Shown: in pieces, positions 33,472 through 63,866 of the stretch | Numbering within the stretch: position 1 is the stretch's first letter | Layout of the letters: each line of letters starts with the position of its first letter | Assembly (NCBI RefSeq): GCF_900104025.1 | Contig: NZ_FNIQ01000006.1 | Location: 62,001 to 126,000 of the forward strand | Direction: 5' to 3' | Origin: Geodermatophilus sp. DSM 45219 | GTDB taxonomy: Bacteria; Actinomycetota; Actinomycetes; Mycobacteriales; Geodermatophilaceae | DNA: 64,000 nt | Notes under the pieces: model-generated | Databases searched by the model: none | Told to the model about the DNA's origin: nothing | The model's input: only the letters and a program-made list of their open reading frames with translations | Translations under genes and position numbers: made by a program

Positions 33472-34452
33472 GTGGACCTCGACGAGGTGGCCGACGAGCT
33501 GTACGCGGTGCCGCCCGACGAGTTCGTCGCGCTGCGCAGGCAGCGCCAGGACGACGCCCGCGCCGCGGGGGACCGCACGCTGGCCCGCGAGGTCGGCGCG
33601 CTGCCCAAGCCGACGACCGCCGCCTGGGTGGCCAACCTGCTGGCGCGCGAGCAGCGCGCGGAGATCGAGGGGCTGGTCGAGCTCGGCGGGCTGCTGCGGG
33701 AGGCGCAGGAGAGCCTGGCCGGCGACCAGCTGCGGGCTCTGGACCGGCAGCGCTCGCAGCTGCTGACCGCGCTCACCCGGCAGGCGACCGCGCTGGCCCG
33801 CGGGCGCGGCGTCCGGGTGGGCGGCACGGTCGAGACCCAGGTCGCGGACACGCTGCGGGCCGCGATGGCCGACCCGGAGGCGGGGGAGGCGCTGCTGTCG
33901 GGCCGGCTCACCGGCGCGATGTCCTACAGCGGCCTGGGGACGACGGGCAGCCGGCCGGTGCTGCGGTTGGTGCCCCCGCGCCCGGAGCCGCCGCGGGAGC
34001 GGGACCGCCTGCGGAACGGCACCGCGGGGGCCCGCCGGCGCCGCGACGAGGACGCCCGCCGGGCCGCCGAGGAGGAGGTGAGACGCCGCGAGGAGGAGGC
34101 GAGACGCCGCGAGGAGGAGGCGCGCCGGGCGGCCGAGGAGCGCCGCCGCCGGGAGCTGGCGGAGGCGCGGGCCGCCGCGGAGGAGGCGACGGCGCTGGCC
34201 GCCGAGGCGGTCGCCGCGGCCGAGGAGGAACGGCACCGGGTCGACGACCTCGACGCCCGCCGGGCCCACCTGCAGGCGCGGGTGCAGGAGCTGGCCGACG
34301 AGCTGGCCCGTGCCGAGCGGGAGGCCGCCGACACCGCCGAGGAGCTCCAGCGGGCCGAGCGGCACCGGCGCACCGCCGACCGGCACGCCACCGAGGCCAC
34401 CGCGGCCCGCGACCGCGCGCTCGAGACCGTGCGCGCGCTCGAGGAGGGCTGA
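33472..34452 (+). CDS. coiled-coil protein of unknown function
   Basis: A 326-residue protein. The first ~110 residues form a conserved helical domain widespread in actinobacteria, beginning DLDEVADELYAVPPDEFVAL and containing LPKPTTAAWVANLLAREQR. From about residue 190 it becomes a long Arg/Glu/Ala coiled coil, with a 21-bp direct repeat (34080-34121) encoding RRREEEA units. There is no signal peptide. The function is not known; a structural or scaffolding role fits the coil. GTG 33472 is the first start after the palindromic element. Confidence 0.65.
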   Translation: MDLDEVADELYAVPPDEFVALRRQRQDDARAAGDRTLAREVGALPKPTTAAWVANLLAREQRAEIEGLVELGGLLREAQESLAGDQLRALDRQRSQLLTALTRQATALARGRGVRVGGTVETQVADTLRAAMADPEAGEALLSGRLTGAMSYSGLGTTGSRPVLRLVPPRPEPPRERDRLRNGTAGARRRRDEDARRAAEEEVRRREEEARRREEEARRAAEERRRRELAEARAAAEEATALAAEAVAAAEEERHRVDDLDARRAHLQARVQELADELARAEREAADTAEELQRAERHRRTADRHATEATAARDRALETVRALEEG

Positions 34453-60085: not shown

Positions 60086-61453
60086 TCACACGGGGGAGTG
60101 TCCGGTCACACCGCCGCCGCGGTAGCTGCGCCGGTAGGTGCCCGGGGCGACGCCGATGGTGGCGCGCAGGTGCTGGCGCAGGGACGCCGGCGTGCCGAAG
60201 CCGGCCTCGGTGGCGACCCGGTCGATCGGCGCGTCGGTGGACTCCAGCAGCTGACGCGCCAGCGCGATCCGCTGTCCGGCCAGCCAGCGCAGCGGCGACA
60301 GGCCGGTCTCGTCGCGGAACCGGCGGGTGAAGGTGCGCACGCTCATCCGGGCGTGTGCGGCGAGGTCCGCGAGGGTCAGCGGCTCGGCCAGCCGCTCGAC
60401 GGCCCACGCCCGGGTCGCCGCCGTCCCCACGTCGCCGGCCTCGGGCAGCGGCCGCTCGACGAACTGGGCCTGACCGCCCTCCCGCCACGGGGCGACGACG
60501 TTGCGCCGGGCCACCCGGTTGGCCACCTCGCAGCCGTGGTCGCGGCGGACCAGGTGCAGCAGCAGGTCGATGCCCGCGGCGTTGCCGGCCGAGGTCAGCA
60601 CGTCGCCGTCGTCGACGAAGAGCACCCCGGGGTCGAGGCGGACGGCGGGGAACAGGCCGCGGAAGGCCTCGGCGTGCATCCAGTGCGTGGTGGCCGGTCG
60701 CCCGTCGAGCAGCCCGGCTGCGGCCAGGACGAAGGCGCCGGTGCAGATGGAGACCAGCCGCGCGTGCCCGGCGGCGGCGCGCAGCGCCCCGGCCAGCCCG
60801 TCGGGGAGCGTCCCGTCGGTCATGGCCGGCCCCCCGTACACGCCGGGGACGACGACCGTCCCCGCGCTCTCCAGCAGCGAGGCGTCGTGCTCGGGGATGA
60901 CGGAGTAGCCGGCGGAGGTGCGCACCGGGCCGCCGTCCAGGGTGGCCACCCGCACCCGGTAGAGCCGCCGGCCGTCGGCGTCGACCGCGGACTCCAGCAG
61001 CCGGTGGGGCAGGCCCAGCTCGAAGGCGATGCTGTTCGGCAGCGCGAGGACGGCGACCTCGTGGGGGCGGGCGGGGTGCGGAACCCTCGTCGCGGCCGGG
61101 ACCGGGCCAGACGTCCCGCCCGGACTCGGGGCTGGTGTCCCGCCCGGACTCGGGGCTGGTGTCCCGCCCGGACTCGGGGCTGGTGTCCCGCCCGGACTCG
61201 GGGCTGGTGTCCCGCCCGGACTCGGGGCTGGTGTCCCGCCCGGACTCGGGGCTGGTGTCCCGCCCGGACTCGGGGCTGGTGTCCCGCCCGGACTCGGGGC
61301 TGGTGTCCCGCCCGGACTCGGGGCTGGTGTCCCGCCCGGACTCGGGGCTGGTGTCGCGGCCGGGACCGGGCCAGACGTCCCGCCCGGACTCGGGGCTGGT
61401 GTCCCGCCCGGACTCGGGGCTGGTGTCCCGCCCGGACTCGGGGCTGGTGTCAT
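60086..61453 (-). CDS. GlxA-type regulator (DJ-1/PfpI plus AraC) with a repetitive N-terminus
   Basis: A 455-residue protein. Residues 2-121 are fifteen 8-residue repeats (TPAPSPGG or TSGPVPAA). Then follows a DJ-1/PfpI-like domain (VAVLALPNSIAFELGLPHRL onward, with the nucleophile-elbow ICTGAFVLAAAGLLDG) and a C-terminal AraC HTH pair ending in GFGTPASLRQHLRATIG. ATG 61453 is supported by AAGGA 7-8 nt upstream, and no other start precedes the DJ-1 domain. The regulator is divergent from an MFS transporter, probably its target. The repeat domain is unusual for this family, whose members normally begin at the DJ-1 domain. Confidence 0.75.
   Translation of the reverse strand: MTPAPSPGGTPAPSPGGTPAPSPGGTSGPVPAATPAPSPGGTPAPSPGGTPAPSPGGTPAPSPGGTPAPSPGGTPAPSPGGTPAPSPGGTPAPSPGGTPAPSPGGTPAPSPGGTSGPVPAATRVPHPARPHEVAVLALPNSIAFELGLPHRLLESAVDADGRRLYRVRVATLDGGPVRTSAGYSVIPEHDASLLESAGTVVVPGVYGGPAMTDGTLPDGLAGALRAAAGHARLVSICTGAFVLAAAGLLDGRPATTHWMHAEAFRGLFPAVRLDPGVLFVDDGDVLTSAGNAAGIDLLLHLVRRDHGCEVANRVARRNVVAPWREGGQAQFVERPLPEAGDVGTAATRAWAVERLAEPLTLADLAAHARMSVRTFTRRFRDETGLSPLRWLAGQRIALARQLLESTDAPIDRVATEAGFGTPASLRQHLRATIGVAPGTYRRSYRGGGVTGHSPV
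61091..61450. repeat. fifteen 24-bp tandem repeats
   Basis: The array, read on the plus strand, has the order one V unit (61091-61114), ten R units (61115-61354), one V unit (61355-61378) and three R units (61379-61450). All R units appear identical, as are the two V units. The unit length is a multiple of three, so on the minus strand it codes for TPAPSPGG (R) or TSGPVPAA (V). There are no spacers, so it is not a CRISPR array. Confidence 0.95.
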
Positions 61454-61525
61454 GGCCGGATCCTTGCACGTGTTGGCTGCCGGGCCACTGTCCGGTGCCG
61501 CGCCCCATCGGCCATGCTGTCGGCC

Positions 61526-62842
61526 GTGACGAGCACCGCCGCGCCGCGCACGTACCGGATCCACCCGGCCTGGTGGGTCGCCGCGGTGACCTTCCTGGCC
61601 CTGGTCGGCGCCGCGGCGTTCCGCGCGGTGCCCGGCGTGCTCATCGAGCCGCTGCGTGCGGAGTTCGGCTGGTCGCTGACGACGATCTCGGCCGCCGTCG
61701 CGGTCAACATGGCGCTGTTCGGGCTGACCGCGCCGTTCGCCGCCGCGCTGATGGAGCGCTTCGGCATCCGCCGGGTCGTGGTCGCGGCGCTGCTGCTGAC
61801 CGCGGCCGGCAGCGGGCTCACCGTCTTCATGACCGCGAGCTGGCAGCTGGTGCTGCTGTGGGGCGTCGCCGTGGGCCTGGGCACCGGCTCGATGGCACTC
61901 GCGCTGGTCGCGACGGTGACCGGCCGCTGGTTCGTCGCCCGCCGCGGCCTGGTGTCGGGCATCCTCACCGCTGGGAGCGCGACGGGGCAGCTGGTGTTCC
62001 TGCCGGTGGTCGCCTGGACCGACGCGACCTGGGGCTGGCGGGCGGCGTCCCTGGGCACGACCGCGGCGGCACTGGCCGTCGTCCCGCTGGTGCTGTGGCT
62101 GCTGCGCGACCGGCCGCGCGACGCCGGGGTCGCCCCCTACGGCGGGACGGCGGCCGACGACGTCGACCCGGTGCGCTCCGGCGCGGCCCGGACGGCGGTG
62201 CGCGGGCTGGTCTCCGCGGTGCGCAGCGTCCCGTTCTGGCTGCTGGCCGGGGGCTTCTTCATCTGCGGGCTGTCGACCAACGGGCTGGTGCAGCCGCACT
62301 TCATCCCGGCCGCGCACGACCACGGCATGCCGGTGACCACCGCGGCGGGGCTGCTCGCCGTCGTCGGCGTCTTCGACATCGCCGGGACGGTGCTGTCGGG
62401 CTGGCTCACCGACCGCACCGACCCGCGCGTGCTGCTGCTGGCCTACTACGGCCTGCGCGGGCTGTCGCTGTTCGCGCTGCCGGCCCTCTTCGGCCCGGAC
62501 CTGCACGTCAGCATGGTCGCGTTCATCGTCTTCTACGGGCTGGACTGGGTGGCCACGGTGCCCCCGACGCTGGCGCTGTGCCGGGAGTTCTTCGGCGCGC
62601 GGGCTCCGGTGGTGTTCGGCTGGGTGTTCGCCTCCCACCAGCTCGGGGCGGCGGTCGCGGCCTTCGGCGGCGGCGTGATCCGCGACGTGACCGGCTCCTA
62701 CGACCCGGCGTGGCTGATGGCCGGGGCGCTCTGCATCGCCGCGGCGGTCATGTCGTTCCTCATCCCGCGCCGTCCACCCGCCGCCGGGACCGCGCTGCCG
62801 ACCGACCGCGAGGAGGCCGCCGCCGCCCAGGCCCACGGCTGA
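61526..62842 (+). CDS. MFS transporter (OFA/MCT-like)
   Basis: A 438-residue MFS carrier with about twelve helices. The first helix WWVAAVTFLALVGAAAFRAV and the loop PLRAEFGWSLTTISAAVAVN are typical of the monocarboxylate/oxalate-formate group, as is the later FGARAPVVFGWVFASHQLGA segment. GTG 61526 is preferred because CATGCT lies 7 nt upstream; ATG 61514 is the alternative. It diverges from the GlxA-type regulator, 72 bp away, suggesting control by it. The solute may be a carboxylate or amide-type compound. Confidence 0.78.
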   Translation: MTSTAAPRTYRIHPAWWVAAVTFLALVGAAAFRAVPGVLIEPLRAEFGWSLTTISAAVAVNMALFGLTAPFAAALMERFGIRRVVVAALLLTAAGSGLTVFMTASWQLVLLWGVAVGLGTGSMALALVATVTGRWFVARRGLVSGILTAGSATGQLVFLPVVAWTDATWGWRAASLGTTAAALAVVPLVLWLLRDRPRDAGVAPYGGTAADDVDPVRSGAARTAVRGLVSAVRSVPFWLLAGGFFICGLSTNGLVQPHFIPAAHDHGMPVTTAAGLLAVVGVFDIAGTVLSGWLTDRTDPRVLLLAYYGLRGLSLFALPALFGPDLHVSMVAFIVFYGLDWVATVPPTLALCREFFGARAPVVFGWVFASHQLGAAVAAFGGGVIRDVTGSYDPAWLMAGALCIAAAVMSFLIPRRPPAAGTALPTDREEAAAAQAHG

Positions 62843-62857: not shown

Positions 62858-62908
62858 TATCGCGACTTTGGCGGACTTGCCTCGCTGCCTTCATCGCGAC
62901 ATCGGCGG
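62858..62908 (+). repeat. two copies of a 17-bp TCGCGA repeat before the DUF559 gene
   Basis: TATCGCGACTTTGGCGG (62858-62874) and CATCGCGACATCGGCGG (62892-62908) share the pattern YRTCGCGAYNTYGGCRG. Two more copies in the same orientation lie just after the DUF559 gene. They are intergenic and not in the coding sequence. Confidence 0.6.
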
Positions 62909-62999
62909 CTTCCCGCCCGATCGCGACCAGGACGGTGGACACGTCGTCGACCTGTGGACGACGGCCGGGAAGCGGCCGCTCGTGTCGCAGGCTGGCCGG

Positions 63000-63866
63000 A
63001 TGTCCGCTCCCCGTCGTCTCCTCACCGGCGTCTTCATCGGCAGCCACGCGATCGCCGACGGGTACCTCACCCGCAACCAACTGCGCACCCGCAGCTATCG
63101 CCGGCTCGTGCAGGGGGTCTATGCCGATCCGGCCCTGGTCCTCGACCACCGGTTGCGGTGCCGCGGTGTGGCCCTCGTGATGCCTCCGGGTGCCGCCATC
63201 GGCGGGCATTCGGCCGCCGCCTGGTTCGGCGCCCCCTTCGCGGGGGCCACGGACCCGGTGACGGTCCTCTGCCCGGAGGAGGTCCGGTGGCGGGGTCCCC
63301 GCGAGGTCCGGCTGCACCACACGGACCTGCCGCCTCGCGAGGTCGTCATCGTGGACGACGTTCCGGTGACCACGGTCCTGCGGACGGCGTGGGACGTCAT
63401 GGCGCTCGAGCCCCTGAGCACGGCGGTGGCCGCCCTCGACGCGATGGTCCGCGCTGGAGGCGTGTCGCTGCCCGATCTGGAGACGCTGGCGCAGCAGGGG
63501 AGTGGCCGGTGGGGCGTCGCCCGGGTCCGGCGGGCGGTGCCGCTGGTGGACCCGCGTGCCGAGTCCCCTCAGGAGTCCCGGTTGCGGGTGGCCCTCGTGC
63601 TCGCCGGGATGCGGCCGGTGCCGCAGTTCGAGGTGCACTCCGGGGGGCGGTTCGTCGCTCGCGTCGACCTCGCGTTCCCGGAGGTGCGCCTGGCCGTCGA
63701 GTACGAGGGTGCCCACCACTTCGTCGGCGACCAGATCGCGCGTGATGAGGCGCGGCTCGACCGGCTCCGGGCGGCGGGCTGGCGGGTCATCCGGGTCAGC
63801 GCGGCCGACATGCGCGACCTCGAGTCGCTCGTCGCCCGGATCCGCCTGGCTCTCGCCGAGGCCTGA
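63000..63866 (+). CDS. DUF559 (Vsr-like endonuclease fold) protein
   Basis: A 288-residue protein common in actinobacteria. The N-terminal half (HAIADGYLTRNQLRTRSYRR, LVQGVYADPA) resembles an AbiEi-type winged helix, and the C-terminal DUF559 domain resembles very-short-patch repair/restriction nucleases: ARVDLAFPEVRLAVEYEG has the Asp and Glu of a PD-(D/E)xK-like core, followed by DEARLDRLRAAGWRVIRVSA. ATG 63000 is the first start; in-frame codons upstream run through the repeats and are rejected. Its role (defence, repair or selfish element) is unknown. Confidence 0.75.
   Translation: MSAPRRLLTGVFIGSHAIADGYLTRNQLRTRSYRRLVQGVYADPALVLDHRLRCRGVALVMPPGAAIGGHSAAAWFGAPFAGATDPVTVLCPEEVRWRGPREVRLHHTDLPPREVVIVDDVPVTTVLRTAWDVMALEPLSTAVAALDAMVRAGGVSLPDLETLAQQGSGRWGVARVRRAVPLVDPRAESPQESRLRVALVLAGMRPVPQFEVHSGGRFVARVDLAFPEVRLAVEYEGAHHFVGDQIARDEARLDRLRAAGWRVIRVSAADMRDLESLVARIRLALAEA

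Follow-up and report, generated by a model that had tools for sequence, protein, structure and literature searches.

An in-frame minisatellite directly after the start codon of an AdpA-like regulator gene in Geodermatophilus sp. DSM 45219, most likely encoding a tolerated N-terminal tail

The regulator gene and its start-adjacent array

Within the window, i.e. the whole 64-kb stretch of Geodermatophilus sp. DSM 45219 DNA that was analyzed, a regulator gene and an MFS transporter gene are divergently oriented, and a minisatellite occupies the regulator frame from codon 2 onward (Table 1). Read on the minus strand from codon 2, the units follow the order R3-V-R10-V, from 61450 down to 61091, which corresponds to V-R10-V-R3 on the plus strand. 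The original prediction of fifteen 24-bp units in this order, with an ATG directly abutting them at 61453-61451, was confirmed, the unit count being that of the assembly. All 13 R units are identical to each other, as are both V units, with 9 of 24 positions differing between R and V; the 24 bp beyond the end of the array do not form a further unit (13 mismatches to R and 11 to V). The array has the properties of a coding VNTR, namely head-to-tail tandem units, a unit length that is a multiple of three, and a coding frame without a stop. Consistent with earlier expectations, copy number can change without a frameshift given the 24-bp unit, and the array is open in the other frames as well, i.e. 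in all six. The recent expansion that had been proposed was also upheld. The array is the longest readable one among those compared; it is of an old kind and reached its copy number recently.

Table 1. Features of the regulator locus, with positions counted from the first nucleotide of the window
Feature	Position	Strand	Basis or remark
AdpA/FtrA-like regulator, 455 aa	60086..61453	-	Pfam, NCBIfam, PDB sequence search
24-bp minisatellite, 15 units, residues 2-121 (TPAPSPGG / TSGPVPAA)	61091..61450	-	
Domain-proximal V unit	61091..61114	-	
R units (n=10)	61115..61354	-	
Inner V unit	61355..61378	-	
Start-adjacent R units (n=3)	61379..61450	-	
Start codon ATG	61451..61453	-	Same place under the conserved block in 53/53 readable orthologues
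TGGCCGGATC, 10/10 to the AdpA consensus	61453..61462	+	Candidate site; overlaps the start codon
Conserved block immediately upstream of ATG	61454..61489	-	
AAGGAT, -10-like hexamer, 6 nt before the A of ATG	61460..61465	-	Putative leaderless promoter
Inverted TGGC-N6-GCCA element	61474..61487	-	Putative operator
Divergent MFS transporter	61514..62842	+	Start-to-start gap of 60 bp

TRF results were compared over 864 kb of the 4.97-Mb genome, made up of the window and an 800-kb sample. The array was detected with a period of 24 and a score of 620, against 104 for the runner-up in the 64-kb window, and ranked ninth by score in the 864 kb, where the rows outscoring it had units of 42-369 bp. Only one other array with units of 50 bp or less scored above 300 in this sample (42 bp x 11.5, score 774), indicating that such arrays are rare in the genome, although not unique. 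This second minisatellite, with 95% matches, lies at G000:C6:83436-83920 of the same genome, and a degenerate, GAG/GCC-rich 21-bp repeat that is perhaps coding was observed at 34040-34229 of the window. An identity as a dispersed element was rejected, as a DNA search of the organism's own genome returned six matches, all inside the array.

Pfam assigned a DJ-1/PfpI domain to residues 133-303 and an AraC helix-turn-helix to residues 364-442. This order of domains is the AdpA-type architecture; AdpA has an N-terminal DJ-1/PfpI domain. The best solved-structure match of the DNA-binding domain in a PDB sequence search was likewise AdpA (3w6v, E 4e-27). The protein also resembles FtrA, sharing the same two domains along nearly the whole NCBIfam profile NF006902 (323.7 bits, profile positions 8-323 of 327), but the score falls below the curated cut-off of 425. 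The gene had been described as a GlxA-type DJ-1/AraC regulator; the DJ-1 and AraC domains and the translated N-terminus stand, while the type is corrected to AdpA-like. In an AlphaFold prediction based on 18 aligned proteins, nearly all of residues 1-126 had a pLDDT below 50, whereas residues 131-140 averaged 97 and contained the first strand (131-137); a single-sequence run (mean pLDDT 42.5) was replaced by this alignment run. The 120-residue repeat segment is thus predicted to be a disordered tail directly before the DJ-1 domain.

Start codon, upstream block and candidate control elements

At a threshold of E <= 1e-100, orthologues were present in 24 of the 26 genus genomes and, across the family, in 53 of 112, own genome included, with near relatives in Geodermatophilus, Blastococcus, and Trujillonella; two genomes (G014 and G021) contained only a distant paralogue. 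The N-terminus was read at 54 loci, comprising 24 from the genus, 28 from the rest of the family, and two more (L051 and L058). One of the 54, L011 of genome G010, lies at a contig end with no readable start and therefore falls outside the 53 readable orthologues. A locus whose match begins at residue 69 and in which no start was found (L093, G083) was left out, and the second copy in G106 is not among the loci. A maximum likelihood tree was built with 52 rows; L058, whose frame ends early, and the distant L094 are among the 53 but outside the tree.

The conserved ATG and the DJ-1 domain share one reading frame in 52 of 53 readable orthologues, and in 36 of these 52 it is the only in-frame start ahead of the domain. 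The window has no ATG, GTG, or TTG between array and domain, and the next in-frame start is codon 166, within DJ-1, on which ground a start after the array was rejected for this gene. Orthologues without units begin at the homologous ATG, indicating that the start is ancestral and that the array sits between start and domain. A conserved start inside the repeat, the outcome named beforehand as fatal to the original prediction, was not found. The array is, judging from these reading frames, almost certainly translated as the N-terminus of the regulator.

The block upstream of the ATG is strictly conserved. Invariant in all 53 readable orthologues are AGTGGCC (-36 to -30), G at -28 and -24, CA (-22, -21), TG (-15, -14), A at -11, AT (-8, -7), and GGCC (-4 to -1), where the search expression had itself fixed -8 and -4 to -1, allowed two letters each at -7 to -5 (T or C only at -7), and left the rest free. 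The pattern from -36 to -11 occurs once in the genome at zero mismatches and three more times at two mismatches, compared with 23 for a reversed control. A loose version of the pattern gave no match in the part of seven paralogue loci that was searched, whose true starts are uncertain. The block faces an MFS gene at 52 of 54 loci, as had been predicted for the window, the exceptions being the broken L011 and the distant L094. Uniqueness of the block in the genome suggests a local rather than a global regulator, and the pair likely serves local autoregulation together with the transporter. Beside the MFS gene, an ORF with a weak match to DUF559 / MTES_1575 nuclease-like proteins was noted at 62868-63866 of the window.

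The hexamer at -12 to -7 reads AAGGAT in 32 of 53 orthologues and varies at both G positions, while A is present at -12 in 50 of 53 and, as above, A-11, A-8, and T-7 are constant, the latter two under the constraint of the search expression. AGGA, GGAG, or GAGG is retained in only 34 of 53, so that the Shine-Dalgarno sequence proposed originally was not substantiated. With variable G positions and constant A-11, A-8, and T-7, AAGGAT is better read as a -10 element, presumably of a leaderless promoter, than as a Shine-Dalgarno sequence. In actinobacterial leaderless genes, the start is described as preceded by TANNNT at a distance of about 12 bp (PMC3160421, PMC3898074). The hexamer resembles those of such TA-led genes in having nAnnAT 12 to 7 nt before the ATG (PMC3160421) but differs in its first base, which is A and not T. 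Transcription probably begins at the A of the ATG, which would make the mRNA leaderless. A function of the array as an RNA hairpin was considered and found weak (first 100 nt, z -2.12, with 5 of 200 shuffles as good; single-unit folding, z -1.21 to 0.33).

The candidate AdpA-type site overlapping the start codon matches the consensus TGGCSNGWWY, as given in PMC4021200, at 10/10 positions in 49 of 53 orthologues and at 9/10 in the remaining four, rows that share ancestry and are not independent; the chance density of the consensus in the organism's own genome is 2e-5 per position and strand. The window site also fits TGGCCGRAWH, the AdpA motif stated for S. venezuelae in PMC12466573. Seven distant homologues were compared as well, with 10/10 matches in two Streptomyces, 9/10 in Actinophytocola, and 6-8 of 10 in the four others, whose starts are less certain. 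In these Streptomyces (L056, L059) and Actinophytocola (L057) loci the start-overlapping TGGC box is kept at 54-60% protein identity. The upstream inverted element matches the AdpA consensus at 7-9 of 10 positions on one strand and 5-7 on the other.

Units in relatives, their turnover and origin

Besides the window, 19 loci carry recognizable units, 34 in total (at most five mismatches; including two divergent units in L016). The statement that the encoded segment is not part of the known family proved half right: related 8-residue units occupy this position in 18-19 further readable species and in G010. In the latter, contigs C9 and C83 each break off within a homogeneous array built from a related unit, giving at least four units. 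A single chance-like core match in L084, out of register, was not counted as a unit. In L016 (G023) the corresponding position is occupied by a different, 12-bp repeat (ATTP), as though the site were prone to repeats. The tail between start and domain ranges from 2 to 129 residues across readable orthologues, and from 2 to 19 in those without units (21 in L016).

Orthologues with and without the array were both found, and copy number varies across species, as in a VNTR. Units are lacking in 32 of 52 tree rows, a count in which L016 is labelled with zero units despite its two divergent ones counted above; L011 is labelled with eight units though at least four are shown, which leaves its class of two or more unaffected. 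The unit-less rows cluster on the tree (10 changes vs a shuffled mean of 16.4, none of 500 shuffles being as low). G010, G012, and G009, only 0.02-0.04 changes per column apart, contain at least four, zero, and one unit, respectively, and such differences among close species amount to rapid gain and loss at one fixed position. With none to several copies at the same spot in relatives, the array is a fast-changing add-on beside a strictly conserved control region.

The units of the relatives mostly end in RGTCCGGCC, which is followed by ATG or GTG in 19 of 34 and resembles the start region GATCCGGCCATG; the unit end often copies the gene start (TCCGGCCATG). The idea that the unit copies all 21 bp upstream of the ATG was rejected, the left 12 bases giving p 0.17-0.73 in 19 of 19 comparisons. 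Since these 12 bp are unlike the upstream region, derivation from the start region is supported by the last 7-10 bases only. The R units of the window have lost both the ATG and the AdpA-type box, and its two V units match the box at 9/10 on the other strand.

Explanations for the array and comparison with known systems

The most likely explanation, with a probability of about 0.7, is a minisatellite that is translated in frame from codon 2 of the AdpA-like regulator gene onward and whose product is a tolerated tail. Its seed would have been a short piece of the start region (TCCGGCC, often with the longer gene-start copy described above) directly repeated 24 bp downstream of the original, and replication slippage or unequal exchange would have duplicated the 24 bp between the repeats. 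Gains and losses of units would be nearly neutral, given that 24 is a multiple of three and that the DJ-1 domain tolerates a disordered tail. A recent burst in DSM 45219, perhaps with a block duplication carrying V, would then have produced the 15 units. As the mRNA is probably leaderless, the array would form its 5' end.

The wobble positions of the first unit are unexpected for a purely neutral tail and raise the possibility of constraint at the DNA level. Codon 6 has a wobble T in 15 of 19 species, a frequency that does not rise above 2 of 19 in the 317 codon columns of the gene body, and codon 3 a wobble A in 13 of 19, compared with at most 3 of 19 in the gene body. Array homogenization does not explain this pattern, as the T of codon 6 is kept in 9 of 11 single-unit species; among other orthologues the wobble base of codon 6 is G or C in 32 of 33, a comparison in which the codon already belongs to the domain where tails are shortest. 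Furthermore, in 12 of 19 species a second AdpA-type box, matching at 9/10, lies downstream of the start-overlapping one at a distance of exactly 24 bp, where L010, with a tail below 40 nt, was unscanned and counted as without. According to PMC3411110, AdpA binds boxes at oriC that deviate from the consensus by one nucleotide. The first unit may accordingly be a second regulator-binding site, with extra units extending an intragenic operator array and changing autoregulation. This reading is unlikely: the box is absent in 7 of 19 species, orthologues without an array manage without it, and in the window a box remains only in the two V units, on the other strand. The wobble conservation could also stem from selection against mRNA structure close to the start.

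A further reading, somewhat less likely again, combines these features in a minisatellite that is its own operator, in which each slippage event would add a candidate binding site, an in-frame start, and eight disordered residues at once, most copies in the window's species having since lost site and start. If true, the strength of autorepression, the number of isoforms, and protein length would be coupled to one mutable locus, family-wide.

It is very unlikely that the array is a strain-variable tuning device, in which tail length would set the activity or stability of the regulator and copy number would switch it. Copy number does differ widely between close species, and the 24-bp unit preserves the frame, but no length is conserved, most tree rows have no unit, and the tail is predicted to be disordered. 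The nine rows with two or more units showed no clustering on the tree (8 changes, against 8.5 on average after shuffling; 207 of 500 shuffles were as low), which argues that tail length matters little and leaves tuning, as originally suggested, unsupported.

An assembly artefact affecting copy number or unit perfection is highly improbable. A 360-bp array is longer than most short reads, and the homologous array breaks the G010 assembly, but related units occur in many independent assemblies, three of them single-contig (G004, G008, and G009), and an artefact would affect the count only.

Hardly probable at all for the window is a leader, untranslated or separately translated, with the regulator starting beyond it: the GC3 of the array (0.66, vs 0.97 in the gene body) is in keeping with a leader, but GC3 is also lowered at codons 2-5 of orthologues without units (0.70-0.79), and the window has no start codon between array and domain. 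Such an arrangement is probably real in one relative (L020 of G008, on one contig), where a TGA in the last unit closes the array frame and the GTG that overlaps it is in the domain's frame; the array there would be a leader ORF outside the regulator, which likely starts at the GTG after the array.

The preferred reading of a tolerated tail places the array close to other coding minisatellites and VNTRs of bacteria, with which it shares in-frame, perfect units, a disordered product, and a copy number that varies between relatives. It is unlike them in starting precisely with the second codon of a regulator gene that is probably leaderless and in that the unit of the relatives is often followed by a start-codon copy. 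The regulator itself is comparable to AdpA of Streptomyces in its DNA-binding domain and in the consensus site at its start, but unlike AdpA it is paired with a divergent MFS gene and has a conserved block that is unique in the genome. To our knowledge, no AdpA with a repeat tail has been described, and a literature search, whose coverage excluded most subscription journals, found no such array for this regulator family.

Taken as a series, the loci offer natural copy-number variation at one start-anchored site in some twenty species, beside a strictly conserved promoter/operator block. The series allows one to ask how a minisatellite is born, how important tail length is for a transcription factor, and whether the DNA-level constraint in the first codons reflects autoregulation. 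If the array is ordinary, it would still be a clean example of how nearly free the N-terminal length of such regulators is.
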